A stretch of DNA of 25,432 nt, taken from positions 1 through 25,432 of the IMG/VR virus record IMGVR_UViG_3300005613_000379; one strand, written 5' to 3'. Below the pieces are notes generated by a model. The model made no database searches. It was not told the DNA's origin and saw nothing but the letters and a program-made list of their open reading frames with translations. Below, one piece after another: positions 3,452 through 21,182 of this stretch (position 1 is its first letter; every line of letters begins with the position of its first letter). The DNA is from a virus. The position numbers and the translations under genes are program-made.

Positions 3452-4291
3452 ATGTCTGAGATTGAGTGGAAGGGGTATGAATCTAATCCAACTAACAACT
3501 TTGCTGCCAAGTGGTATCTTAATGGCTTTCCGAAGTCAGGGTTGCACTTAGCGGTACAGTTCATCAAGAGGTTGACAAAGAAGATGCCCCTCGGACAGCT
3601 TCACCCGCGCCCTTGGGTGGGGACGTTTAAGCACAACTCATGGTCTGAAGAGTGGCAAGACATACAGATGCAACTGTATAACCTATCACGCTGTATGCCA
3701 GGTCATTACTTCAAGGGCCATTGTGCTTACAAGCCTGAAATTGAACACTTTATGTGGTATCTTGGCTTGGCGCATGTCTTTATCTACAGAGACTTAAGAG
3801 ACGTTGCGGTAAGTCAAGCATATCACATCTTGAGTGACAATGAAGACCTGAAGCATCCTGCTAAAGACCGTTATCGTGAATTGGGTGAGTTTGATGAGGT
3901 GTTAGAAGCCGTAATTGTGGGCCTAGATGAGTTTCCAGGCATAGTGCATAGATGGGAAGCGTATGCACCTTGGCTTGAAGTGGAGTGGGTATACAAGTTC
4001 CAGTTTGAGCGGGTGTTAAGCGATCCGAAAGAGACAGCGGGGGAACTCGTCATGTATGGCCTGCAAAGGATTTCTGACATATACAAGCTCAACTTAAAGC
4101 CTGCGCCTGAGAGTGTAGCAGCAATGGTAGATGCGATGACGGAATCTGCGGTAGACAGAAAGGAAGAGGCTTTAACGTTCCGCAAGGGCAAGTCGGGTGA
4201 GTGGAGAACCGAATTCACTCAAAGGCATATAGAGTTGTTCAAGGAAACAGACCAGGCTGGATGGATAGATAAACTTGGTTATAGGTGGTAG
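3452..4291 (+). CDS. Sulfotransferase-like protein
   Basis: A 279-aa protein with the two PAPS-binding signatures of sulfotransferases. The 5'-phosphosulfate loop is NGFPKSGLHL (residues 24-33; Lys28, Ser29, Gly30), and the 3'-phosphate motif is IYRDLRDVAVS (111-121; Arg113, Ser121). Between them lies HYFKGHCAYKP (85-95), like the KGH.xY segment near the acceptor site, and the C-terminal part has FERVLSDPKETAGEL. The family moves a sulfuryl group from PAPS to a hydroxyl or amine of a sugar, lipid or other acceptor. One oddity: the Thr usual after KSG (KSGT-H or KSGTT) is Leu31. It lies between head genes, so it may modify a virion component or a host glycan; the substrate is unknown. Confidence 0.85.
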   Translation: MSEIEWKGYESNPTNNFAAKWYLNGFPKSGLHLAVQFIKRLTKKMPLGQLHPRPWVGTFKHNSWSEEWQDIQMQLYNLSRCMPGHYFKGHCAYKPEIEHFMWYLGLAHVFIYRDLRDVAVSQAYHILSDNEDLKHPAKDRYRELGEFDEVLEAVIVGLDEFPGIVHRWEAYAPWLEVEWVYKFQFERVLSDPKETAGELVMYGLQRISDIYKLNLKPAPESVAAMVDAMTESAVDRKEEALTFRKGKSGEWRTEFTQRHIELFKETDQAGWIDKLGYRW

Positions 4292-4549: not shown

Positions 4550-4562
4550 TGGAGGAATGGTA

Positions 4563-6551
4563 ATGAAAAACAAAGCTTATGCGGCCCTGGCTATTCTTTT
4601 GATCTTGGTTGTCATTCTCGCTGGATGTGAGGGCGACACCTGGCAGAAGATAGACCAGGCGGCACAGACCTATGGCTGCAATGTGTATCGTGAGCAGGGT
4701 TGCGGCAAAATGGTTATCGCGTCTGGGGGCGAACTTGAGGCACAGAGTGGGGCTACGATAGACTTTCAGTCTGGCGTAACGCTTGGCCTTGACGATCTGA
4801 CCCTCAATGGCACGACCACTGCTACCCTTGGAGCGGCAGATAGGATGTTGCTTGACGGCGATACTACGAACCAGACTCAAACGTCTGGGGCGCTAGATAT
4901 CAATGTCGGTACAGTTACAGCTGATGTGAGTGCTCTCAATGTTGCATTCACTCAGGATAACGGGACGGCGACGGGGACGGACGGCTACGCGGCCATCTTC
5001 ACTCTTACCCAGAACGACGCCGACGCTGACATGCGGGGCGTCAAGGTTGAGGCGGCTGCCACGACCAACGCCGCAGCAGATTCCTATGAGTACCTGCTGA
5101 GCCTGATCTGCTCGGAGAACACCGACGGAGCATGTGAGGACGCGCTGCTGGTGACGGCTGGCAGCACGGACGGCGCGGTAACGGATGCCATTGACGTGTC
5201 TGATGGCGAGATAGACAACGCTATCAATGTCGGGGCGAACGACATCATGTTCGAGGACGACACGGTTGACATGGATGTTGATGATTCGTTCCGTGTGACC
5301 CGTAATGATAGTGGCGCGGTGACGTTCACCTGTGCCGACAACGACACTGACGCCACCTGTATCTATGACACGGGTGGAGCTGGCGATTTACAGCTCGGCT
5401 CAGCTGATACGGGCAAGATCACGGCCTACGCCACCGACGACGTGACGGTGGATCTGACGTCTTCGACGGACGGCGAGGATATTATCATCTCGCAGGACGG
5501 CAATCACGACGCAAGCATCCTGATTAGTGCTGAGGGCAGTGGAACCGACGCACTGAAACTGGAGACCGTGACCAATGGTGGAGACATTGTTGTGTCTTCA
5601 GTGGACAATCTGCAACTGACTTCGGCTTCTGCATCTGGGGTCATCGACATCGATGGCACAGCCGGACTCGTCTACAGCATCGCTGAGGATGACACGGCGG
5701 CAGACGACATCGACATCGGCAGCGCCAAAGACGACGTGGATATTGAGGGTGAGGATATCACTCTTGATACCGCAGACGACATGGACTTCGCGGTGGCTGA
5801 TGATGTGAGCTTCTCGATGGAAGGCGCGGCTGGGATATGGGCCGTCAACGGTACGCTAGGTGCAGTCTACAACTTCGCCACTGATGATAGCGTTGCAGAC
5901 GACATCAATGTTGGTTCGGCCAAGGACGATGTGCTGATCAGCGGCGAGGACATCACGTTCGACACGGATGACGATGCTGATTTCTTGGTAAAAGATGACT
6001 TCACCTTCACGATGGAGACGGCGGCCAATATCTGGTCTGTGACCGGAACGCCGGGGTTCGTGGTCAACGTCTGTACCGACGATACAACTGCCGACGACGT
6101 GAATATCGGGAGTGCCAAGGATGACGTGGACGTAGTGGGTACGACCATCGACCTGACTGGCAGTGTTGGGCTAAATGGTGACACAACGATCGGCACTGGC
6201 GATATCGTCACTGTGACCTCATCGCTCGTATCTGTCGGCAAACTGTTCGAGGTGGAGCCTGGTGACTCCAATACAGCCGTCGCTTATGCCGGAACTATAG
6301 ATCCAGCGACATCCTACGTAGTTCTGGAAGCGGCAACCACCATCACCAATGCGACCATGTCGGCCTGCACGGAGGCAGGCGCGATTGTGTTCCTGACGTG
6401 CGTCAGCACTTCGAGCGACATCACCATTCTGGACGGCACGAATCTGGAGGCAGGGGCCAACATTGCCCTGGACGCCAGTGAGGAAGACGTGGTTCTCCTG
6501 TTGTGTAACGGCACGAAATGGCTGAAGGCAGCCACGTTTGGTGATAACTAG
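4563..6551 (+). CDS. Large repetitive fibre-like protein with lipoprotein signal
   Basis: The start at 4563 is chosen over the ATG at 4557 because the GGAGG at 4551-4555 is only 1 base from 4557 but 7 bases from 4563. The 662-aa product begins with a Lys-containing n-region, a hydrophobic stretch, and a lipobox LAGC with Cys22, so it has the form of a bacterial lipoprotein precursor. The rest is a Gly/Asp/Thr-rich beta protein. Imperfect repeats of about 65 residues are built on DDxxIGSAKDDVxIxGEDIT, seen three times (about 5698-5760, 5896-5958, 6094-6150), with many Asp pairs that might bind Ca2+. The C-terminal end (ALDASEEDVVLLLCNGTKWLK) resembles ends of phage fibre proteins. A virion fibre or a lipoprotein shown on the host surface are both possible. 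Base composition looks GC-richer than in flanking genes. Confidence 0.75.
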   Translation: MKNKAYAALAILLILVVILAGCEGDTWQKIDQAAQTYGCNVYREQGCGKMVIASGGELEAQSGATIDFQSGVTLGLDDLTLNGTTTATLGAADRMLLDGDTTNQTQTSGALDINVGTVTADVSALNVAFTQDNGTATGTDGYAAIFTLTQNDADADMRGVKVEAAATTNAAADSYEYLLSLICSENTDGACEDALLVTAGSTDGAVTDAIDVSDGEIDNAINVGANDIMFEDDTVDMDVDDSFRVTRNDSGAVTFTCADNDTDATCIYDTGGAGDLQLGSADTGKITAYATDDVTVDLTSSTDGEDIIISQDGNHDASILISAEGSGTDALKLETVTNGGDIVVSSVDNLQLTSASASGVIDIDGTAGLVYSIAEDDTAADDIDIGSAKDDVDIEGEDITLDTADDMDFAVADDVSFSMEGAAGIWAVNGTLGAVYNFATDDSVADDINVGSAKDDVLISGEDITFDTDDDADFLVKDDFTFTMETAANIWSVTGTPGFVVNVCTDDTTADDVNIGSAKDDVDVVGTTIDLTGSVGLNGDTTIGTGDIVTVTSSLVSVGKLFEVEPGDSNTAVAYAGTIDPATSYVVLEAATTITNATMSACTEAGAIVFLTCVSTSSDITILDGTNLEAGANIALDASEEDVVLLLCNGTKWLKAATFGDN

Positions 6552-6615: not shown

Positions 6616-6629
6616 TCTAGGAGTTGAAC

Positions 6630-7613
6630 ATGAAGCAATTCCGATGGATTATCCTTGCTTGCGTGGTTGCTGTTGTAGGCGCGAGTGCATTACTGGTTGC
6701 CTGCAATGGCGTAGAAACACAATCACAGGGCCTGTTTGTAGATTGGCACTCGTTCCACAGCGCGGCCACGGCATCTGCAAGCGGAACAGCTATGGATACA
6801 GAAGGCTACCCTGCATTGACTATCAGCGTAGAAGGCATCAGCGGTGATACTGTACAGTTTGAGCAGACCGTGGATGCGAGCACGTGGTATTCGTTGCCGG
6901 TAGTAAACATGGTAACAGGTGCAGTGATTACGTCTACTACAGCAGATGGTATGTTCTATGCACCGATTAATGCCGATCAGGTGAGGTGTGAGCTTGCGTA
7001 TTCTGCTGGCACGGTTACGGTATTAGGAATAGCCAGCACCAACGATGCGGACATACTAACACGTAACGAGGTAGATGGTGTGCAAGTCGTAGACGCCACG
7101 GGCCAAGGCGATGTGCCCATCACTCTCGACAGCGAGGTGGTGTCCGCTGACGTCACAGGCCAGGGCGACGTGCCTATCACGCTGGATGGCGAGGAGCCAA
7201 CCATTGCCGACATCGAGGACGGCGGCGGGACGAGCATCATGGACTCGACGCTGAATGCAGCCCAGGTAGTCGTTCAGGCCACTGCCACCGTGACCAACGT
7301 CACGGGCAGTAGCACCATCAACATCGACTATGCGCCAGGCGTCACCTTCTGGCTGGAGTCTGTAACGCTGCATCTTAGCAGTGCGCCAACCACCAGCGAG
7401 AACTTCACCGTCGTGCTGAACGCTTCGGATGGTGCGGCATACGACACGACACTGGTAAGCGAGGACTTGTCCTCCGGGTCAGAGTCCAATTTGCTGTACC
7501 AGCCCGAAGGCGGTAGTCTGCTATGCGAGAGTGGAGATCAGATTGACGTAGATTTCGCCAACAGCGACAGCCGGACGTATGGCGTTCGCATTGTAGTGAG
7601 ATTGGCGGAATAG
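6630..7613 (+). CDS. Lipobox-bearing beta-rich phage protein
   Basis: The ATG at 6630 is preferred over the in-frame TTG at 6624 because AGGAG (6619-6623) is well spaced only from 6630. The 327-aa product has a lipoprotein-type signal: MKQFRW, a hydrophobic core, then LVAC with Cys25. The mature part is Ser/Thr/Val-rich and probably all-beta, with a discoidin-like or fibre-like look (FEQTVDASTWYSLPV). Around residues 155-190 there are two copies of TGQGDVPITLDxE, about 51 bp apart in the DNA. The C-terminal half (about 7255-7613) is a beta-sandwich-type region ending in SRTYGVRIVVRLAE. It directly precedes the DGR target gene (stop 7613, next ATG 7622), so it may be made with it. Function is unknown; a surface or virion protein is inferred. 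Confidence 0.7.
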   Translation: MKQFRWIILACVVAVVGASALLVACNGVETQSQGLFVDWHSFHSAATASASGTAMDTEGYPALTISVEGISGDTVQFEQTVDASTWYSLPVVNMVTGAVITSTTADGMFYAPINADQVRCELAYSAGTVTVLGIASTNDADILTRNEVDGVQVVDATGQGDVPITLDSEVVSADVTGQGDVPITLDGEEPTIADIEDGGGTSIMDSTLNAAQVVVQATATVTNVTGSSTINIDYAPGVTFWLESVTLHLSSAPTTSENFTVVLNASDGAAYDTTLVSEDLSSGSESNLLYQPEGGSLLCESGDQIDVDFANSDSRTYGVRIVVRLAE

Positions 7614-7621
7614 GAGGAATA

Positions 7622-9214
7622 ATGCCTATAGTACTGGATGGCAAAGAAGTTGTTGACCAGATGAACGTTCGTCGTGACGCAAGCGCGTCGGGCGAGGTGT
7701 TGCGCTGGGATCAGATGCTAGACGAAGACGATATGGCGTCTGACTCCGCAACCAAGGTAGCCACTCAGCAGTCCGTTAAGGCATACGTGGACGCACGACA
7801 GTATTACGGCCTCACGTGGGATGAGGACGCGGACAGCTATGCTCGCACGGGGATGTTGGCTGGTATAGCTGCTGGCAGTTCGCCAGGTGATGCCGCGCTG
7901 CCTATTCATGCGAGGATGCGTCGTTGTATTATCAGTGATGCTGGTGAAGTGCAATACTATCTCAACTCGAACGATAGCACCAAGAAGGTAGACGGTAGTG
8001 CAGCGGACTTGACAGGCGCAGACGGCCAGGTCATGGTGGAGATTCCATGCTTTTGGTACAGGTATTCGTACTCTGGCACGACCCACCGTTGGGACATCAG
8101 TGAGTTTCCATTGCCTGGGTTTACTCGCCATCCTGCCTTTGTCAAGAATGGCGCCAATGTGGATGTCCGCTATGTGGGCGCTTACGAAGGCGTGTTATAT
8201 GACACATCTGAAAGCAAGTACGTGAACGGACTATACCTGCCGTCGGATGCCAGCTACAAGATGACGTTCACCAATGTTGATGACAAGATTGAGTCGGATA
8301 CGTTGACACACCCATTCACCAATATTGAGGTGGGCGTGGACAAGATCGTCGTCAGCGGCACGGTGAACAACAACGGTACATACGATGTGGTTACACAAGG
8401 CGATGATTTCATCACAATTGGCGCGGGCGGAACGCTCACGGATGAAGCGAATGTTGCCTGTGTGATTCAGGTGCAACGAGACTGGACAGCGACTACGGGA
8501 GATGTGTTAGGGTCTGTGTCGGGCAAGGCTCCCATGAACTATGGCACGCGGGCCAACTTTCGCGCTGCGGCAGCCACGCGCGGGACAGGCTGGCGACAAC
8601 TTGATTTCTACTTAGTTTCAGCCATTCAATTACTTTATCTGGTAGAGTACGCCGACTTCTACTCCCAGTCCATGATCGGGAGCGGGTTGACGGATTGGAG
8701 TTCAGCCTGGCCTGCGTGGAATAACTCCAATCCAATCGAGACAACGGGGAACAGCAACTCAGACGGTGATGCAACTGCCAATACGAGTGGGGGTGACGGA
8801 GCAACTGGTTCGTACATGTCCTACCGTGGAGTTGAAAACTGGTATGGGCATGTTTGGGCGTGGGTTGACGGGTTCAACATCAACAGCAACGTGCCTTATT
8901 TCAGCAACACTGATACGGATTTTGCTGATGACACGGCGACGAACTACGATGATCCTGGTGTGACGCTGGCAGCTGCCAATGAGTATCAAAACACGCTTGA
9001 GCAGATAGACGAAGGTTTCTTGCCTGCGAGTGTGGGTAGTCCTGGCACTGCGACGACGAAGATTACTGATTATTACTATCAAAGTACCGGTTGGCGGGTC
9101 GCTCTGATGGGCGGGTGTGCGCTTAATGGCGCGTTTGCGGGCGCCTTCTATTGGTATCTGAATGACGCCTCCTCCTATCTGAATCGGCATTTCGGCGGTC
9201 GGGTCTCGTTTTGA
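7622..9214 (+). CDS. DGR-diversified tail/surface protein with C-type-lectin-like C-terminus
   Basis: A 530-aa protein with a strong AGGAGG site. Residues 36-57 (DDMASDSATKVATQQSVKAYV) match a short motif common in phage tail-fibre N-termini, which suggests virion attachment. A beta insert lies at about 215-285. From about residue 320 (RGTGWRQLDFYLVSAIQLLYLVEY) to the end it has the layout of the C-type-lectin fold of DGR targets, related to the formylglycine-generating-enzyme fold. The last 41 residues (490-530) are the variable repeat, which is nearly identical to the template repeat 164 bp downstream. Compared with the template coding, residues 491, 492, 499, 512, 515, 516, 519, 522, 523, 524, 526 and 527 differ through adenine changes. 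These residues probably form the ligand-binding face. A receptor-binding role is inferred from known DGRs. Confidence 0.9.
   Translation: MPIVLDGKEVVDQMNVRRDASASGEVLRWDQMLDEDDMASDSATKVATQQSVKAYVDARQYYGLTWDEDADSYARTGMLAGIAAGSSPGDAALPIHARMRRCIISDAGEVQYYLNSNDSTKKVDGSAADLTGADGQVMVEIPCFWYRYSYSGTTHRWDISEFPLPGFTRHPAFVKNGANVDVRYVGAYEGVLYDTSESKYVNGLYLPSDASYKMTFTNVDDKIESDTLTHPFTNIEVGVDKIVVSGTVNNNGTYDVVTQGDDFITIGAGGTLTDEANVACVIQVQRDWTATTGDVLGSVSGKAPMNYGTRANFRAAAATRGTGWRQLDFYLVSAIQLLYLVEYADFYSQSMIGSGLTDWSSAWPAWNNSNPIETTGNSNSDGDATANTSGGDGATGSYMSYRGVENWYGHVWAWVDGFNINSNVPYFSNTDTDFADDTATNYDDPGVTLAAANEYQNTLEQIDEGFLPASVGSPGTATTKITDYYYQSTGWRVALMGGCALNGAFAGAFYWYLNDASSYLNRHFGGRVSF
9089..9206 (+). repeat. DGR variable repeat (VR)
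   Basis: This 118-bp segment at the 3' end of the target gene aligns without gaps to 9253-9370 (offset 164). There are 14 differences. Thirteen are at positions where the template has A: 9093, 9096, 9117, 9155, 9164, 9167, 9176, 9186, 9188, 9191, 9197, 9201 and 9206. The changes are A to G (8), A to T (4) and A to C (1). One is not at A: template C9287 is T9123 here. The GC-rich 3' end (about 9193-9205) is the likely region for initiation of mutagenic homology; just after it the two copies differ by TCG versus AGC. Confidence 0.95.
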
Positions 9215-9231
9215 TACATTACATAATATCT

Positions 9232-9401
9232 TGGTTTTCCATATAGTACTCAGGTTAGCAGGTCGCTCTGATGGGCGGGTATGCGCCTAATGGCGCGTTT
9301 GCGGGCGCCTTCTATTGGAATCTGAATAACACCTCCTCCAATCTGAATCAGAATATCGGCAGTCAGGTCAGCTTATCTCAATCTGTAGATATGGAAAACC
9401 A
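9232..9401 (+). ncRNA. Putative DGR template RNA core closed by a 13-bp inverted repeat
   Basis: TGGTTTTCCATAT (9232-9244) is perfectly complementary to ATATGGAAAACCA (9389-9401), and the two arms enclose the whole template repeat with short spacers on each side. This would let the template RNA form a closed stem next to the start of the spacer that leads to the reverse transcriptase gene (9371-9485). In the Bordetella phage DGR, the RNA downstream of the template repeat is structured and needed for priming cDNA; an equivalent role here is inference. Confidence 0.55.
9253..9370 (+). repeat. DGR template repeat (TR)
   Basis: The invariant donor copy of the variable repeat, lying in the gap between the target gene and the reverse transcriptase gene. 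It has 25 adenines, many as AAT or AAC codons in the frame of the target gene (NLNNTSSNLNQNIGSQ), the usual design of a template repeat, because AAC/AAT codons give wide amino-acid choice and no stop. Thirteen of the 25 adenines are changed in the variable repeat. In the target frame it carries a TAG stop at 9256-9258, which is TGG in the variable repeat. Confidence 0.95.
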
Positions 9402-9485: not shown

Positions 9486-10550
9486 ATGAAAAGATACGGT
9501 TACTTGTATGAAAAGATGTGGGATATGGATAATATCCGAGAGGCTCATCATAACGCACAACGTGGCAAGCGGTATTATCGCGAAGTGCAGATGGTGAACG
9601 CAGACACAGAGAAGTATCTGAGTCAAATCCAAGCTATGCTGCGGGACAAGACATTCCACACCTCAGAGTATGAGGTGTTCACCAAGGCTGACGGTAGTAA
9701 GGAACGAGAGATTTACAAGCTGCCATACTTTCCAGACAGGATTGTGCACCATTGCATCATGCAAATACTTGAGCCTATCTGGATGAAGACGTTTATTACA
9801 GATACCTATTCATCGTTAAAGGGGCGCGGTATCCATAAGGGCGTCCAGCGGATGAAATTGGCATTACAAGACAGGAAAAATACTCAATATTGCTTGAAGT
9901 TTGACATTCGCAAGTTCTATCCGTCAATTGACCATGATGTTCTTAAAGCAATCATCCGTAAGAAGATAAAAGACCCTGGTGTTCTATGGCTGTTGGATGA
10001 AATCATTGATTCAACTGAAAGTGGTGTGCCGATTGGTAACTATCTCAGTCAGTACTTTGGCAATCTATATCTGGCATACTTCGACCATTGGATGAAAGAA
10101 GAAAAGCGTTGTAGGTACTATTTTCGTTATTGCGATGACATGGTTATACTACATAGTGATAAGCAATTTCTACGCCAATTGTTTGAAGATGTGCAGGAAT
10201 ATCTATTTACCAATTTGAACTTGGTGGTCAAATCCAATTATCAAGTATTTCCAGTAGAAAAGCGAGGTATTGACTTTTTGGGTTATAGATTCTTTCACGA
10301 TTACACGCTTTTGCGTAAAAGTATTGCGCAACGCTTCAAAGCTAAGATACTGAAGATTAGGCAAAGTTGGAGAAACATGAGGCCCAGCCAGATTATAAAC
10401 GGCATTATGAGTTATTGGGGCTGGATGAAATATGGGAATTGCTTTAATCTTGCCAAGAGGTACATTGATAAGGAAATTGAGCAGATTGTGGCAGAAACCT
10501 GCGAGGCTAATGGAACGAAAAATCCATTGAGGAGATTAAAATGGCAGTAA
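9486..10550 (+). CDS. DGR reverse transcriptase
   Basis: A 354-aa reverse transcriptase of the group-II-intron/DGR type. Motifs in order: YKLPYFPDRIVHH (77-89), SSLKGRGIHKGVQRM (109-123), LKFDIRKFYPSIDH (137-150, catalytic Asp140), GVPIGNYLSQYFGN (180-193; the GxPxGNxxSQ form is typical of DGR enzymes), YFRYCDDMVIL (212-222, catalytic Asp217 and Asp218), and GIDFLGYRFF (261-270). It lacks maturase and endonuclease domains, as expected for a DGR enzyme. It makes cDNA from the template RNA with errors at adenines, which then replaces the variable repeat. The ATG overlaps the end of a reading frame that runs out of the template repeat. The gene looks more AT-rich than the glycosidase gene downstream. 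Confidence 0.96.
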   Translation: MKRYGYLYEKMWDMDNIREAHHNAQRGKRYYREVQMVNADTEKYLSQIQAMLRDKTFHTSEYEVFTKADGSKEREIYKLPYFPDRIVHHCIMQILEPIWMKTFITDTYSSLKGRGIHKGVQRMKLALQDRKNTQYCLKFDIRKFYPSIDHDVLKAIIRKKIKDPGVLWLLDEIIDSTESGVPIGNYLSQYFGNLYLAYFDHWMKEEKRCRYYFRYCDDMVILHSDKQFLRQLFEDVQEYLFTNLNLVVKSNYQVFPVEKRGIDFLGYRFFHDYTLLRKSIAQRFKAKILKIRQSWRNMRPSQIINGIMSYWGWMKYGNCFNLAKRYIDKEIEQIVAETCEANGTKNPLRRLKWQ

Positions 10551-10942
10551 GCGAAAGCGGTACTTACCCAGAAACGTTCGCCAAATCACGCGGGCGCACG
10601 CTGTTTCGGTGGAATATCCAAGAGGAGCAGGTAACTGACCCTGTGACTGGCGAAGTGACCACCAAGTATGTCTACGATGAAGTAGCAATTGAGGGCAATG
10701 TCACCAAGGCCAAAATCCTGGAGGCCATGCGCCTGGCGGACATCGAAAGTGCAGACTCGGAAGGGAGCGCACTGGCAGAATACGAGGTCGCAAATACCAA
10801 GCTCGCCAAGATAGCCGATTTGACCTATGCGCAGCTGGATTCATACATAGACAAGAATGTGACTGACTTGCCTTCTGCGAAGGTCTTTCTGAAGGACTTG
10901 GCGGCCGTGGTTCTGGCGGTTCTGAAGCGCCTGGGGATCTAA
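10541..10942 (+). CDS. Phage hypothetical protein downstream of the DGR
   Basis: The 133-aa product overlaps the reverse transcriptase gene by 10 bp and has a ribosome site (GAGGAG) inside it. Its N-terminal half is beta-like and acidic (TLFRWNIQEEQVTDPVTGEVTTKYVYDEVAI). The C-terminal half is helical: LAKIADLTYAQLDSYIDKNV, then DLPSAKVFLKDLAAVVLAVL. This helical end is a recurring pattern in small phage proteins coded beside tail-fibre genes. I looked for Avd, the usual DGR partner (a basic four-helix-bundle protein); this is acidic and half beta, so I do not call it Avd. Function is unknown. Confidence 0.7.
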   Translation: MAVSESGTYPETFAKSRGRTLFRWNIQEEQVTDPVTGEVTTKYVYDEVAIEGNVTKAKILEAMRLADIESADSEGSALAEYEVANTKLAKIADLTYAQLDSYIDKNVTDLPSAKVFLKDLAAVVLAVLKRLGI

Positions 10943-12039
10943 TGCGAGGAGTAGCCATCCTTTGCTTGCTCGTCGTCATCACCGCAGGCTATCTGATAGC
11001 GCATACTGACGCGCCAGTTCAGGGCATCGGCGTCGGCTGGGACGAGGGCACGCAGCAGGAGATTGACGCTGTGGCAGAGTGGTACTACAACTGGGGACAC
11101 AACCGCGTCCACGCCGACTACCACCCGATGGTGTGGTGTGGCTTGAGGCAGTCCGTTCTGGACTACGCCGCGGCGCATCCGGGCAAGACGTGGCTGATCT
11201 CAAACGAACCGAATTGTCCGTACCAGTGTGGCAAGTATGTGGAAAGCGCGGCTGAGGCCGGCGCACAGGACAGAGAGACGATTGACAATATCCTGGCCGT
11301 AGACCCATCGGCCATGTTCCTGATGGGCGGCCTGTACTCGTTCGATCCAGACTGGATCAGCTACTCAGAGGACTATTGGCAAGCATTGCGTGGCTGGGAG
11401 ATACCGGAGATCATCGGCTGGCACATCCACATCTACCATGAGTGGAATGCTTGGGGCCCGTATCAGGAGCACCGCGACAGAGTGTACGGCGAGTTTGTGG
11501 ATGGCATCACGGAGTGGCGGCAGCGATGGCCTGACGGTGAGCTGTGGCTGACCGAGTGGGGGCCGCTGGGGTGGTATGCGCTGACGTGGCCTGACAGCAT
11601 CCTGGACTACATGGAGCGGACGATTGACTGGATGGAGAGCAGCGGCAAGGTAGATCGTTACGCCTGGTTCGCGCTAAAGCAGGTGCCCGATTACGCGGAC
11701 TATGCAGCCTACTTGTTCGGTATGGAAGGCAACCTGACGGTGTATGGTCAGCAGTATGCCAGTTACCTGAGCGGCGCACCGCCGACGAGTATGCCAGAGC
11801 CAACGCCAACGAACACGCCACAGCCAACACCGACCAGCACGCCCATGCCTGCGCCAGACTACCCTGATCACGACTTGAACGAGGACTGTGTGGTGGACAT
11901 TCAAGACGTGATGCTGGTAGCGGCTTGCTGGCGAGACTATAGCGGATACTGCATGGCGATGGATCTGAACGGAGACGGGCGGATCAACGTGGTGGACATC
12001 ATGCAGGTGGCGGCGCATTGGGGAGAGGTGTGCGAATGA
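10942..12039 (+). CDS. Secreted glycoside hydrolase (GH128-like) with C-terminal dockerin
   Basis: A 365-aa protein in three parts. Residues 1-20 are a signal peptide or N-terminal membrane anchor. Residues 27-275 look like a TIM-barrel glycosidase of the Glyco_hydro_cc/GH128 type: YYNWGHN (48-54), HPMVWCG (61-67), ISNEPN (86-91, candidate acid/base Glu89), GWHIHIYHEW (159-168), LWLTEWG (201-207, candidate nucleophile Glu205), and YAWFALK (240-246). The known family cleaves beta-1,3-glucans; the substrate here is unproven. A Pro/Thr linker (284-305) leads to a type I dockerin with two Ca2+ loops: D311, N313, D315, D319, D322 and D341, N343, D345, N349, D352. The gene overlaps its upstream neighbour by 1 bp. 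A dockerin in a phage structural region is very unusual. Confidence 0.85.
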   Translation: MRGVAILCLLVVITAGYLIAHTDAPVQGIGVGWDEGTQQEIDAVAEWYYNWGHNRVHADYHPMVWCGLRQSVLDYAAAHPGKTWLISNEPNCPYQCGKYVESAAEAGAQDRETIDNILAVDPSAMFLMGGLYSFDPDWISYSEDYWQALRGWEIPEIIGWHIHIYHEWNAWGPYQEHRDRVYGEFVDGITEWRQRWPDGELWLTEWGPLGWYALTWPDSILDYMERTIDWMESSGKVDRYAWFALKQVPDYADYAAYLFGMEGNLTVYGQQYASYLSGAPPTSMPEPTPTNTPQPTPTSTPMPAPDYPDHDLNEDCVVDIQDVMLVAACWRDYSGYCMAMDLNGDGRINVVDIMQVAAHWGEVCE

Positions 12040-12155: not shown

Positions 12156-12995
12156 ATGGCACAACGAGACTTTCGCTTTTATATTTCAAGAGAAGAATGC
12201 AAGCGTTCTTTCCTGAACGTGCCCAGTGCAATTACGGAGGAAGACATCAAGACAGATCGTTGTATCCGCATGGCGACGATGGATATTGAGCGGTACACTG
12301 GTCTAAGATTTCTTCCGTATACTGACACGAAGTATTTCGACCATCCAGAAGATGATACCGTATTGGTGGTTGGGCCAAGATTGCTTAGCATCACTACTTT
12401 TACTACAGCCAACACAGATACCACCGTTACCAGTGGGCAGTATTACCTGATGTGTGGCGATAGATATGATCTAAAACCGTATGACCGCATCGTGATGAAG
12501 AGCGATGGTGGCAGGCCCAATCTGTACTATTCTGGCACGCCACAGAAAGCCAATGCCATTACTGGTGTATGGGGCTGGACAGATGATTTTGACAATACGG
12601 GTACGACGTTAGGAGCGGCGATTAGCTCCACTACGGCTACCAGTTTTACTTCCAGTAATGGTTCTGCATTAGAAGTTGGATGGATGTTGTTAATAGACAG
12701 CGAGCAGATGTTCGTGTCTGGTATTAGTGGCAACACCGTGACGGTAAAGCGCGGGCAGGGTGGCACTACGGCGGCCACACAGTCCGATGGCGCTATAGTA
12801 TACAGGTATCCGCCGCCATTTGATATAGAAGAAGCGTGTGGCGTTATTGCAGCACGGTTATATGAGCGCGGCGCTACAGCATGGGCAGATATTTCTGGTA
12901 GCAGGGAAAGTGGGTTGCAGTATACTTTCAGGATGCCGGAGGAGGCGCGGATGATCTTGGAAGCTTACAAGTGGCGATATGGGAGTGCAATATAG
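12156..12995 (+). CDS. Head-tail connector protein (gp6-like)
   Basis: A 279-aa protein. Its N-terminal part (FYISREECKRSFLNVPSAITEEDIKTDRCIRMATMDIERYTGL) and C-terminal part (PPPFDIEEACGVIAARLYERGA...PEEARMILEAYKWRY) are the two helical ends of gp6-like/HK97 connector proteins, which start with a short helix, have a helix for monitoring the portal, and end near a YK..R motif. The middle (about residues 70-225) is a larger beta insert with LLIDSEQMFVSGISGNTVTVKRGQGGT, a small domain often seen in phage proteins. Members of this family usually have about 100-200 aa, so the insert makes it long. It forms the ring between portal and tail. Position after an accessory island instead of directly after the capsid gene is odd. 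Confidence 0.75.
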   Translation: MAQRDFRFYISREECKRSFLNVPSAITEEDIKTDRCIRMATMDIERYTGLRFLPYTDTKYFDHPEDDTVLVVGPRLLSITTFTTANTDTTVTSGQYYLMCGDRYDLKPYDRIVMKSDGGRPNLYYSGTPQKANAITGVWGWTDDFDNTGTTLGAAISSTTATSFTSSNGSALEVGWMLLIDSEQMFVSGISGNTVTVKRGQGGTTAATQSDGAIVYRYPPPFDIEEACGVIAARLYERGATAWADISGSRESGLQYTFRMPEEARMILEAYKWRYGSAI

Positions 12996-13604
12996 ATGGC
13001 TACTTTGACCTTGCAGCCAGCCAGTGGAATTGATGCCGCCATTGACTCATACAGGCCAACCACCAATCTTGGCTCAGACTACTTGTTTGCTGTTGGATAT
13101 GACAACCAGAGAATTTATAGGCAGCTGATCAAGTTCGATTTGTCTGCGTTGCCAAGTGGCGCTGACATCACATCCGCCACATTGTCATGGTATGTGAACA
13201 TTGATGTTTCTACTAATCAGACGACTTATCGCGTCTATCGTCTGAAGCGCGCCTGGGTAGAGAGCCAAGTGACATGGAGCATCTACAGTACAGGCAACAG
13301 CTGGCAAGTTGCTGGTGGATTTGGTGCTAACGATTGTGAACAAGTGGACATAGGAAGCCGCATATTTACAGCTGCTGAGACCACAAATGAGTTCAAGGAT
13401 TTTGCACTAACGCCAACTACAAAGGCTGGTCTTGATTTAGGGAATGGCTGGCTAATCAAGGCAGACAACGAGAGCGTGCAGGCACAATATCGTGGCTTTT
13501 CTTCTGATTGGGACACAGCGGCTCAAAGGCCCAAGCTGGTCATAGAATACACGGGCGGCGTCGTGCCAGTAGCTATGAGTTCTTATAGGCGCAGGAGAGT
13601 ATAA
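12996..13604 (+). CDS. DNRLRE-like (CBM96-type) carbohydrate-binding protein
   Basis: A 202-aa protein of one domain. The pattern DAAIDSYRPTTNLGSDYLFAVG, then QLIKFDLSALPSGADITSATLSWYV, VYRLKRAWVESQVTWSIY, and a final QRPKLVIEYTGG is the DNRLRE/CBM96 beta-sandwich pattern found in secreted and cell-wall proteins that bind glycans. The C-terminus ends with basic SSYRRRRV. There is no signal peptide. The gene abuts the connector (TAGATG) and overlaps the next gene by 1 bp (TAATG), so it is probably a virion protein. Glycan binding is inferred from the family. Confidence 0.7.
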   Translation: MATLTLQPASGIDAAIDSYRPTTNLGSDYLFAVGYDNQRIYRQLIKFDLSALPSGADITSATLSWYVNIDVSTNQTTYRVYRLKRAWVESQVTWSIYSTGNSWQVAGGFGANDCEQVDIGSRIFTAAETTNEFKDFALTPTTKAGLDLGNGWLIKADNESVQAQYRGFSSDWDTAAQRPKLVIEYTGGVVPVAMSSYRRRRV

Positions 13605-18088: not shown

Positions 18089-18511
18089 ATGCCTGTAATT
18101 ATCACTATAAAGTCGCGTGGCCTGACAGAGCTGTGTCGGAGGTATCATGAATCTCCAGCGATAGTGCAAGGGCTAATTACTTTGGCGCTGACTAATAGTG
18201 CAGGAGCGGTGCATAAGAAACTGCGTACATATACGCAGTCATATCCACGTCAACGCGAAAGCGCATATATTCGTACCTTTGCCTTGATGCAGTCTGTGGA
18301 TTGTAAAGTTGAGCTAAATACTGCATGGATTACGGCGGGCCGTGGCATAGATTATGCTAGCAAGGTATGGGGTTATGATGAGCAGCTGGAAATGCACAAA
18401 CACATGGGTTGGTGGACGAATAAAAGTGTGGCAGAGGATATGCGTGGTGTGATAGGAAAGCATTTTGTGAATTCTGCAAAGAAGATGTCGGAGTATCTGA
18501 GCGGTGGCTAA
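18089..18511 (+). CDS. Small protein before the tape measure
   Basis: The start at 18089 is chosen over the in-frame ATG at 18020 because GGGAG (18076-18080) sits 8 bases before it and because the 18020 start lies inside the frameshifted chaperone. The 140-aa product is basic and has a helical start (SRGLTELCRRYHESPAIVQGL), then NSAGAVHKKLRTYTQSYPRQRESAYIRTF, and ends in helices. The layout (helix, TPYRTGxLRxS-like segment here as YPRQRESAYIRTF, KxWGxxE-like YASKVWGYDEQL) is reminiscent of HK97 gp10-type morphogenesis proteins. It overlaps the tape measure gene by 8 bp. Confidence 0.6.
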   Translation: MPVIITIKSRGLTELCRRYHESPAIVQGLITLALTNSAGAVHKKLRTYTQSYPRQRESAYIRTFALMQSVDCKVELNTAWITAGRGIDYASKVWGYDEQLEMHKHMGWWTNKSVAEDMRGVIGKHFVNSAKKMSEYLSGG

Positions 18512-21182
18512 TTCTACTGTGGTAGAGATCATCTTAAAAGCCAGGAACGAGGCATCCGAGGCGTTGAAGCAGGTAGGCGTGGCAGCCAACAACCTGCGCG
18601 CTCAGATGAGTCAACTTGGAGTTGAGATTGCCTCTGGTCGTAATGCCTGGGAGCAGCTCACTCTGCCGACTTTTACATCACATGTAACTAAGCTTGGCAG
18701 CTCATTTAAGTCAGTTGATAATACCATGAAGCAGTCCGTTTTGCCAGGATACGATGCTCTGATGCGCAAGACCAGTGGCGCCATGACGCAGCAAGATCGT
18801 GCGGCACAAACGAACAAGATGTTGGGGCAGGCCATGCGCGATATGGCCGCGCGCCAGACAGAAGCTGCTGAGGTGGCAACGATCATGGACGGTGTATACC
18901 GCGCCCTGACATTGACTTTCTTGGCTGTTGGGGCGGCAGCTTCCAAACTCGCGTTATCGGCAGTTATGACTGCGGCAAGGACAGAAGAGTTGGCGTTGAT
19001 CACAGAGCGCATGGCCACAACACATGGTTATGGCGTGCAATATGTACAGCAATTGGAGGAATCCATAAAGGAGCTCGGTATCACCACGCAGGGTGCCAGG
19101 CTAATTCTAACTCAGTTTATGGGTTCTAACATTGGTCTGGCAAAATCAACAGAGATGGCGCGTGCTGCTCAAGACCTAGCCACACTGGCCATGGTGGACA
19201 GCTCGGAAGCAGCTGCCGACCTAGCATATACCGTGGCGTCGTTACAGCCGAGATTGCTAAGAAAGTATCGTATTTACATTAGCCTGGTCGATGTTTATAG
19301 AGAGGCGGCGCAAGAGTTAAACAAAACTGTTGTAGCATTAACTGATTATGAGCGCCAACAGGCATTTGTGAATGCCATCTTGGAGGAGGCGGCAGATTAT
19401 ACTGACTTGTACGAACAGAAGATGCGCACCGCTAGTGGGCGCGTGCGGTCTATGCCGAGATATTTGCAGGAGCTACGCAATGAGCTTGGTGAAGGCTTGA
19501 TACCGGTGCTAGATGGCGTAGCTTTAGGTTTCAAAGATGTCACCGATTTGTTGCGTGGGCTACCAGATGTTGTACAGACAGCAATAGCAAGTCTGGCTGC
19601 AGTTGCTGGAGTTCTCACCACGATCACGGCGGCTACGCGCATGATAGTTGGTGCAAGTGTCTTTCAGGCTATTGCATTACCATTCTTGAAGCTGGCAATA
19701 CCCATCGCAGTTTTGACTGGATTGTTATTGGTGTTACGCAGCCGGTTTCAGGATGTTCAGGAGGCTATGCAAGATATTAGTATAGAGGGTGAGAAAATTC
19801 GCAAAGAGTACATACAAAAAGGACAAACATACGATTCGCTTTTAGGGAAAATCGAAGAGGTTTACAATACCGAGTTGGGCCTTGCGGACAAGGTTGTTAT
19901 TTTTGTCACCGGCGGATTAGACCAATGGAAGCTAGCCCTAGCCGGAACTCGCGAAGAGTACGAAAAGCTCAAGCGTGAAATGGAGGCGGCCGTGGAGGCC
20001 GCAAAGAGGACGGGGCTTGTCGCCGATGATGTCAAGCGATCTTGGCACGCTGCTACAACAGGTGTGAAGCAGCACATTGTTTCTTTAGAAGGTTTGGAAT
20101 CAGCATATGGTGATGTGTGGATTGGCATGGCCAAGTTTTTCACTGATTCTTGGCGAGCCGCACAGGATAATGCTGCTGGATTGTTAACCATTCAGCGTCG
20201 GCGACAACGCATTGAGTCTGAGATAGCCAAGAGTGGATATAGTGAGAGACTGGCAAGCCAGCACGACGCCATATTGGAAGAGCAGCATGCCGCCGAGGAG
20301 GCGGGGAAGAGACTGCAACTGGAGCAGCGTCGCCAGCTAGGCGCAATGTTAGCTCAAGCTGCCGAGACAGCCGGATTAAGCGTGGGCTTCCAGTTTGATA
20401 TTATGGAACAGTTTGGCACGATTAGCAAGGATGCGCGCATCGAAGCGGAGAAATATATCAACATAATTGACTCCGTAAAATCTCAGGCTTTGACAGAGGC
20501 TGAGGCCCTACATGCTATAATGTCAGAGGCGATGCCAGCAGACGAGATGCAGATAGCAGCTGAGGCGGCTGATATTTTGGCTACGAGTATGGAAGAACTG
20601 GATGAGGCTATAGTAAGATTTAGGACGCGACTTGATGCATTGCAATTCGTTACTGAATCTGGTGTCGAGGTGCCCGGTTTTGAGGAGGCGATGGCTGGAA
20701 CACAGGTGCAGAAACAGTTCGAGGCACAGCAATTGGTAGAGGCGCTCAACCGTTATCACACCAAGGGCGTGCTGACGCCTGGATTCTATCGCAACCTGCT
20801 AGGCAGTGTAGCGCCCATTTCTGATATTGGCACTAGTGCAGAGCAAACATTATCGGTTAGTCAGGTTGCCACTGACGCTCTTTTGGGGGCGCTCCGTCAC
20901 TATCATACTGAGGGGCTGATGACGCCCGGGTTTATGCGTGACGAGAGTGGCAATATAATTCGTATACCGGGATTTTCTAGTGGCGGCGTTGTGCCTGGGG
21001 CCCTTGGGCAACCACAGCTCATTTTGGCACATGGGGGCGAAACAATTACGCCACTTGGCATGTCAACTCCTGCGCTGTCTATAAACATAGGCTCTCTGTA
21101 TGGGACGGATGAAAGCACCGCGATGAATTTTGGACGCTTTCTTGCTACAGAAATGCGGAGGCAGAACGTAATAACGAGGTAG
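18504..21182 (+). CDS. Tail tape measure protein
   Basis: An 892-aa protein starting with GTG, 8 bp inside the previous gene. It is mostly helical with coiled-coil stretches at the N-terminus (about 1-130), a first hydrophobic segment (131-157) and a large hydrophobic hairpin (357-411, IASLAAVAGVLTTITAATRM...LTGLLLVL), the arrangement of siphovirus tape measure proteins that enter the host membrane at infection. The C-terminal part has two similar units, RYHTKGVLTPGFYRN and HYHTEGLMTPGFMRD, and ends with the common GFSSGGVVPGALGQPQLILAHGGE motif. At 0.15 nm per residue the tail would be about 130 nm. It sets tail length; the family call is firm. Confidence 0.92.
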   Translation: MANSTVVEIILKARNEASEALKQVGVAANNLRAQMSQLGVEIASGRNAWEQLTLPTFTSHVTKLGSSFKSVDNTMKQSVLPGYDALMRKTSGAMTQQDRAAQTNKMLGQAMRDMAARQTEAAEVATIMDGVYRALTLTFLAVGAAASKLALSAVMTAARTEELALITERMATTHGYGVQYVQQLEESIKELGITTQGARLILTQFMGSNIGLAKSTEMARAAQDLATLAMVDSSEAAADLAYTVASLQPRLLRKYRIYISLVDVYREAAQELNKTVVALTDYERQQAFVNAILEEAADYTDLYEQKMRTASGRVRSMPRYLQELRNELGEGLIPVLDGVALGFKDVTDLLRGLPDVVQTAIASLAAVAGVLTTITAATRMIVGASVFQAIALPFLKLAIPIAVLTGLLLVLRSRFQDVQEAMQDISIEGEKIRKEYIQKGQTYDSLLGKIEEVYNTELGLADKVVIFVTGGLDQWKLALAGTREEYEKLKREMEAAVEAAKRTGLVADDVKRSWHAATTGVKQHIVSLEGLESAYGDVWIGMAKFFTDSWRAAQDNAAGLLTIQRRRQRIESEIAKSGYSERLASQHDAILEEQHAAEEAGKRLQLEQRRQLGAMLAQAAETAGLSVGFQFDIMEQFGTISKDARIEAEKYINIIDSVKSQALTEAEALHAIMSEAMPADEMQIAAEAADILATSMEELDEAIVRFRTRLDALQFVTESGVEVPGFEEAMAGTQVQKQFEAQQLVEALNRYHTKGVLTPGFYRNLLGSVAPISDIGTSAEQTLSVSQVATDALLGALRHYHTEGLMTPGFMRDESGNIIRIPGFSSGGVVPGALGQPQLILAHGGETITPLGMSTPALSINIGSLYGTDESTAMNFGRFLATEMRRQNVITR

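Follow-up and report, generated by a model that had tools for sequence, protein, structure and literature searches.

Why a phage should carry, directly behind a DGR and amid its head and tail genes, a gene for a glycosidase that ends in a dockerin is the question raised by the DNA analysed here. The window, i.e. the whole stretch under study, covers a complete IMG/VR virus record (25,432 bases) and represents a fragment of a phage, comprising runs of head and of tail genes as well as a DGR; no genome ends were recognised within these 25,432 bases. An earlier note on this DNA had described the gene as encoding a signal peptide, a GH128-like barrel with two catalytic glutamates, a Pro/Thr linker and a dockerin with two Ca loops. 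Its observation is correct in each detail that was checked, and the open reading frame spans exactly positions 10942–12039 (365 amino acids; this and all other features lie on the + strand).

The open reading frame, its translation and Pfam matches define an exported-looking GH128-like glycosidase with a C-terminal dockerin, whose domain order is directly visible in the translation. Hydropathy analysis identified an N-terminal hydrophobic segment (residues 1–21, approximately; 10942–11004), with the highest Kyte-Doolittle mean over 19 residues (2.27) at residue 3. The segment is a putative signal peptide, which may be a cleaved signal or an uncleaved anchor. The catalytic barrel (residues 41–272; 11062–11757) was recognised by the Pfam family Glyco_hydro_cc (PF11790; E 6.4e-17, 62.4 bits, cut-off 21). 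Both proposed catalytic residues, E89 (SNEP) and E205 (LTEWG), are invariant in 3/3 phage homologues. A profile combining the window protein with two homologues from phages matched the sequences of GH128 crystal structures (6uaw, E 3.4e-16; 6uav, 6uax and others) and placed E89 and E205 at the NEP and TE motifs that are conserved in a GH128-type structure sequence. In GH128 enzymes, the catalytic glutamates are located at the ends of strands 4 and 7. A full-length AlphaFold model, generated with an alignment of three sequences only, was of low confidence (pLDDT 53.3). When this model was used for fold searches, Foldseek ranked the GH128 structure 6uax_A first (E 5.9e-6), and GH128 entries occupied the first nine rows of the VIA-align output (Z 11.8–12.2), led by 6uaz_A (Z 12.2, rmsd 3.5, 186 aligned residues). 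Other barrel glycosidases followed closely (Z ~11), so that the fold matches back up the sequence evidence and cannot stand alone. A Foldseek comparison of the enzyme model with viral models gave no match at E 0.001 or better. No peptidoglycan-hydrolase family was detected in the protein (Pfam, E up to 0.1; PHROG, E up to 0.01), and by family it is therefore not an endolysin. GH128 enzymes of known structure carry the title beta-1,3-glucanase; the substrate of the barrel may be a beta-glucan or a similar glycan.

The barrel is followed by a Pro/Thr-rich linker, apparent from the translation (residues 280–306, approximately; 11779–11859), and by a type I dockerin (residues 310–357; 11869–12012) that matches Dockerin_1 (PF00404) with 28.1 bits (E 2.3e-6, cut-off 22.9). 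Since this E value comes from a comparison of a single protein with the whole of Pfam, the match is not due to chance, and a six-frame search of the whole record placed a dockerin at the same site (E 5.4e-9). Both Ca-loop motifs are present: loop 1 comprises D311–D322 (DLNEDCVVDIQD) and loop 2 D341–D352 (DLNGDGRINVVD), with D1, N3, D5 and D12 kept in each. Loop 1 carries a Cys at position 6, where Gly is the usual residue in dockerins. A single-sequence structure model of the dockerin alone had a pLDDT of 54.1. Bacteria employ dockerins as plugs by which enzymes are attached to scaffolds on their surface, and the contact between cohesins and dockerins ranks with the strongest and most specific ones known between proteins. 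The window dockerin may plausibly dock to a cohesin. As no cohesin was found among the window proteins scanned or in any of ten phage records (0/10; the window and nine relatives), the partner would be a cohesin of the host. Matches of the reverse transcriptase in genome contigs comprised 16 loci, 13/16 from Bacteroidota by record title, at 42–56% identity, which is too distant for naming a host; the style of linker and dockerin may be reminiscent of Chloroflexota.

The gene was confirmed to adjoin a DGR and to lie within the structural run, with head genes upstream (major head protein, 1598–2956) and a head-tail adaptor (12156–12995) and tape measure (18504–21182) downstream (all PHROG). The DGR consists of a target gene for a tail protein of family phrog_5302 (7622–9214; PHROG), a variable repeat at the end of this gene (9089–9206) and a template repeat (9253–9370), both with approximate ends from repeat comparison, and a reverse transcriptase (9486–10550; phrog_1423 and RVT_1, by PHROG and Pfam). 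Between 9093 and 9206, 13/14 mismatches between template and variable repeat fall at a template A, and the DGR, judged by its sequence, is intact. Behind it lies a small gene (10541–10942), referred to as g10541, whose blastp matches comprised 20 fetched loci, including the window's own (L001); among the matches listed, its homologues stand directly behind a DGR reverse transcriptase of the same type wherever this was seen. The ATG of the glycosidase gene overlaps the stop codon of g10541 by one base (TAATG), which couples the two genes. The gene directly downstream of the enzyme is that for the head-tail adaptor, of which no relatives were found. Base composition sets the glycosidase gene apart: its GC3 of 0.751 is the highest of the 22 window genes tested (z 3.8), and its GC content of 0.596 ranks first as well (z 2.6), which suggests recent acquisition. 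Neither a holin nor an endolysin was identified within the 25 kb window, the window proteins that were scanned included no recognisable integrase, and megablast of bases 1–25000 against GenBank phages gave no match.

Several neighbouring genes merit mention in their own right. Directly before the DGR target, 4557–6551 and 6624–7613 encode large proteins with lipobox-like N-termini (LAGC and LVAC, respectively), for which partial homologues exist in L004–L006 and in L007/L008. A sulfotransferase gene (3452–4291; PF00685, 33.6 bits) lies amid the head genes and is also found in L002 and L003. Close to the glycosidase, a further protein is related to carbohydrates: the gene directly after the head-tail adaptor (12996–13604) encodes a Disaggregatase-repeat/CBM96 protein (58.6 and 44.9 bits).

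Single-sequence scans of viral contigs and genome contigs with the enzyme recovered no relative, tblastn returned a single weak match to a phage record along with five plasmid records, an alignment-based scan detected G008 only, and a further scan detected only G009 and its near copy L013. G009 (L010:11609–12592) is an N-terminally anchored GH128-like homologue (50.2 bits) that lacks a dockerin. The same holds for G008 (L088:9168–10382; 77.9 bits), which possesses a Pro/Thr linker and is encoded ~40 kb away from the DGR of its genome. Taken together with the window enzyme, three phages have this type of enzyme and direct it to the membrane, two share its slot and one has the dockerin. None of 50 related virus records (50 of 85 related loci) contained a dockerin match, a tally that may undercount; the module is accordingly not conserved in the group, and a dockerin as group-wide trait was rejected. 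The corresponding count for PF11790 (1/50 related records) is an undercount, as it missed L010, for which hmmscan yet gives 50.2 bits. On the same record as G008, L088:26–2566 encodes a repeat-rich phage protein with Pro/Thr linkers and, by eye, a DNRLRE/CBM96-like end.

In L010, the reverse transcriptase is followed by the g10541 homologue, a small open reading frame, the anchored GH128-like enzyme, a SpoIID protein (60.3 bits), a 606-residue barrel-type protein with glycosidase-like motifs and no Pfam match, and a 97-residue hydrophobic protein that was read as holin-like without a family match. The order of reverse transcriptase, g10541 homologue and GH128-like gene is the same in L013. L011 carries in this slot a 678-residue protein with an SLT transglycosylase domain (PHROG lysis/tail), followed by a small membrane protein. 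By gene content, the slot reads as lysis-type in L010 and L011. As a control in more distant relatives, 80 reverse transcriptase loci were clustered at 90% identity and the 41 with at least 1.5 kb of downstream sequence were kept, yielding 165 open reading frames, of which 15 (11 large, 4 others) were left out. Wall-hydrolase families matched 10 of the remaining 150 downstream frames and 3 of 147 upstream frames from 37 loci (in both cases among the matches listed, 25 of 34 families). This enrichment is weak evidence for a lysis slot in distant relatives, too weak to lean on.

The search for dockerins in phage genomes that the earlier note had proposed was productive. A scan of IMG/VR, with a canonical dockerin placed first in the alignment, confirmed dockerin-like domains in at least 40 contigs. 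Nine proteins were scanned against Pfam (L121, L123, L126, L127, L141, L143, L148, L131 and L138) and the remaining 31 contigs were inspected by eye; some of these may be bacterial sequence, and L122 is the contig of L121. Among the matches listed, 5/40 contigs encode lysins of the CHAP or GH25 type with dockerins, three with a full dockerin and two with a single repeat. L121 combines a CHAP domain (25.4 bits, just below the cut-off of 26) with a dockerin (57.9 bits) when TAG is read as Gln, L123 GH25, dockerin and LysM, and L126 GH25, dockerin and CW_7. The single repeats are located at the ends of L127:3362–3904 (CHAP; 22.0 bits versus a cut-off of 22.9) and L141:7362–8102 (GH25; 21.9 bits versus 22.9), each directly followed by a terminator-like hairpin recognised by eye; these half-dockerins might pair with a second copy. 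The L126 contig is otherwise unrelated to the window and has a DGR-type reverse transcriptase with 47% identity to that of the window, followed by the GH25/dockerin/CW_7 endolysin and then by two further genes, one for a small membrane protein and one for a holin-like product. In gene order it repeats the plan of the window, i.e. a reverse transcriptase and a dockerin hydrolase, with small membrane proteins after it in L126. Apart from these features, no clear relationship links the dockerin contigs to the window, and phage proteins therefore seem to have acquired dockerins on several occasions.

The same scan yielded further dockerin-like proteins and observations. The 178,943-base record of L121 has genes that are open when TAG encodes an amino acid, and this phage therefore seems recoded. 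In L143:7518–8459, a dockerin (39.9 bits) is joined to a crAss-like tail ring protein (CrAss_Ring_3_4, 199.7 bits), and L148:7545–8255 contains a dockerin (38.7 bits) behind a long tape-measure-like gene, with an N-terminus that by eye resembles distal tail proteins. Among the matches listed, 12/40 contigs (L131, L136–L139, L145, L150, L155, L157–L159 and L161) encode a short protein of 85–165 residues that has EF-hand/dockerin-like loops in a pair and a tail rich in Lys/Ala. By eye, many of these proteins have a hydrophobic segment at the N-terminus; for those of L131 and L138, EF-hand families match as well (Pfam). A GenBank 'phage' entry, MT839894.1, was rejected as a dockerin phage, since it contains genes that appear to encode bacterial NADH-linked oxidoreductase.

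We favour, with a probability of about 45%, the reading that 10942–12039 encodes a late exported glycosidase that would cut envelope or sheath glycan of the host and be retained on the cell by its dockerin. The gene would have been captured recently and placed in the slot after the DGR, which in two close relatives appears to be filled by envelope-degrading or lysis-type genes. Judging from its position and from the homologues, the enzyme would be expressed late, alongside the structural genes, and presumably exported through Sec, after which it would cut beta-glucan or a comparable glycan in the envelope, sheath or matrix of the infected cell and aid the escape of progeny. The dockerin would serve as a retention module on the cell surface, most simply via a host cohesin, in parallel to the lysins of other phages, on which dockerins seem to stand beside or replace wall-binding repeats. 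The product may work beside lysis. This reading is supported by the homologous anchored GH128-like enzymes G009 and G008, by the SpoIID and holin-like proteins near the enzyme in L010 and the SLT protein in the slot of L011, by the plan of L126 and the five lysins with dockerins among the 40 contigs listed, as well as by the outlying GC3 of the gene and the fact that dockerin-bearing wall hydrolases are known in bacteria. It is weakened by the lack of a peptidoglycan-hydrolase match in a protein whose GH128 relatives of known structure are titled beta-1,3-glucanases, by the head-tail adaptor as next gene and a 25 kb window in which no holin or endolysin was found, by the distance of the G008 enzyme from its DGR and the weak lysis slot of distant relatives, and by the tallies for dockerins (0/50 related records) and cohesins (0/10 records).

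It is unlikely, if worth serious consideration, that the enzyme is instead cargo for the benefit of the host or for remodelling of its surface, loaded by a phage, perhaps a prophage, onto a cohesin scaffold of the host in order to feed it on beta-glucan or to strip a glycan used by competing phages. The combination of barrel, linker and dockerin resembles a cellulosomal enzyme, the GC3 value suggests a captured cellular gene, and the lipobox-like genes before the DGR target look exported as well; however, the enzyme gene is coupled to the late structural run rather than set in a separate module, none of the scanned window proteins was recognised as an integrase, and the homologues in related phages are devoid of dockerins. 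Appreciably less probable is a dockerin that docks to nothing and persists as a Ca-binding stabiliser or relic, an idea prompted by the Cys in place of Gly in loop 1, by the related enzymes without dockerin and by the low confidence of the module in both structure models. It is at odds with the presence of both repeats, with the conservation of D1, N3, D5 and D12 in both loops and with the fact that unrelated phages, too, have lysins bearing dockerins, which suggests a function. The earlier note had also considered a role of the dockerin in attachment, and a virion-associated depolymerase that opens a sugar layer at entry, tethered through its dockerin to the particle or to a cohesin receptor, would suit a gene set amid those for tail and head proteins, next to the DGR target and the CBM96/disaggregatase-like product of 12996–13604, and would agree with dockerins in the crAss-like tail ring protein (L143) and among tail-type genes (L148). 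The N-terminal hydrophobic segment of the enzyme and both phage homologues, by contrast, misfits cytoplasmic assembly, and no cohesin was present in the phage records tested; since the protein looks built for export and related enzymes have no dockerin, virion attachment by the dockerin is unsupported, which leaves it a little less probable still and makes an exported lysis or release enzyme more likely than an attachment part of the virion. An assembly artefact in which a gene of bacterial origin became attached to the contig of a phage, as the highest GC3 in the window and a junction with the relative-less adaptor gene lacking independent support might suggest, is very improbable given the one-base overlap with the upstream phage gene and the repetition of the order of reverse transcriptase, g10541 homologue and GH128-like gene in L010 and L013, which reduces, without removing, the worry about a chimera.

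More broadly, several unrelated phage lineages may independently have put dockerins on envelope-cutting enzymes (GH128-like in the window, GH25 and CHAP in other contigs), turning host cohesin scaffolds, which serve to assemble food enzymes, into their docking site, a generalisation that we put forward tentatively and consider rather doubtful as yet. The interpretation in the earlier note is partly supported: the phage does encode a dockerin enzyme, which seems to be one case of a wider phage habit, unremarked in the literature searched, of placing dockerins on envelope hydrolases. If true, this would constitute a new targeting route for phage lysins alongside wall-binding repeats, retention by the dockerin would spare bystander cells from the enzyme, and the module would provide a sequence handle linking uncultured phages to cohesin-bearing hosts. 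Given the dockerin lysins, cultured gut or rumen bacteria that bear cohesins could serve to test the idea, with no recourse to the host of the window.

The literature searched, which lacked most subscription papers and bioRxiv preprints, yielded no published description of a phage-encoded dockerin enzyme. The claim that no phage system of this type has been described is in line with the literature searched, but the dockerins on five lysins, the crAss-like ring protein and others in IMG/VR detract from the singularity of the window phage. According to the accessible text of the respective sources, gene 40 of Vibrio phage VvAW1 resembles a dockerin type I protein by blastp (PMC3558961), a region of a phage protein has been modelled on 2wz8 (PMC5967307), and the CHAP lysin LysGH15 has an EF-hand-like calcium site that was likened to a dockerin (PMC4022735). 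VvAW1 gene 40 resembles the present case as a phage gene with dockerin similarity and differs in that the accessible text mentions no enzyme domain (PMC3558961). Ruminococcus champanellensis is described, in the portion of the report available, as possessing a 'lyticome' of dockerin-containing cell-wall hydrolases with lysozyme activity (PMC6403190); these likewise unite a lytic enzyme with a dockerin, although they are bacterial and, in that portion, lysozymes rather than members of GH128 (PMC6403190). The beta-1,3-glucanases of GH128 (PF11790) share with the window enzyme the family score, both catalytic Glu motifs and the best fold matches, whereas the latter is phage-encoded, membrane-directed and equipped with a dockerin. 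Cellulosomal enzymes with type I dockerins are similar as exported glycosidases with a linker and a C-terminal two-loop dockerin, but the window enzyme is encoded in a phage structural gene run, with no scaffoldin or cohesin identified in 10 records. The phage lysins of L121, L123, L126, L127 and L141 are likewise envelope-type hydrolases with a C-terminal or near-C-terminal dockerin; they are GH25 or CHAP enzymes in which a hydrophobic N-terminus is absent by eye, whereas the window enzyme is GH128-like and appears directed to export.
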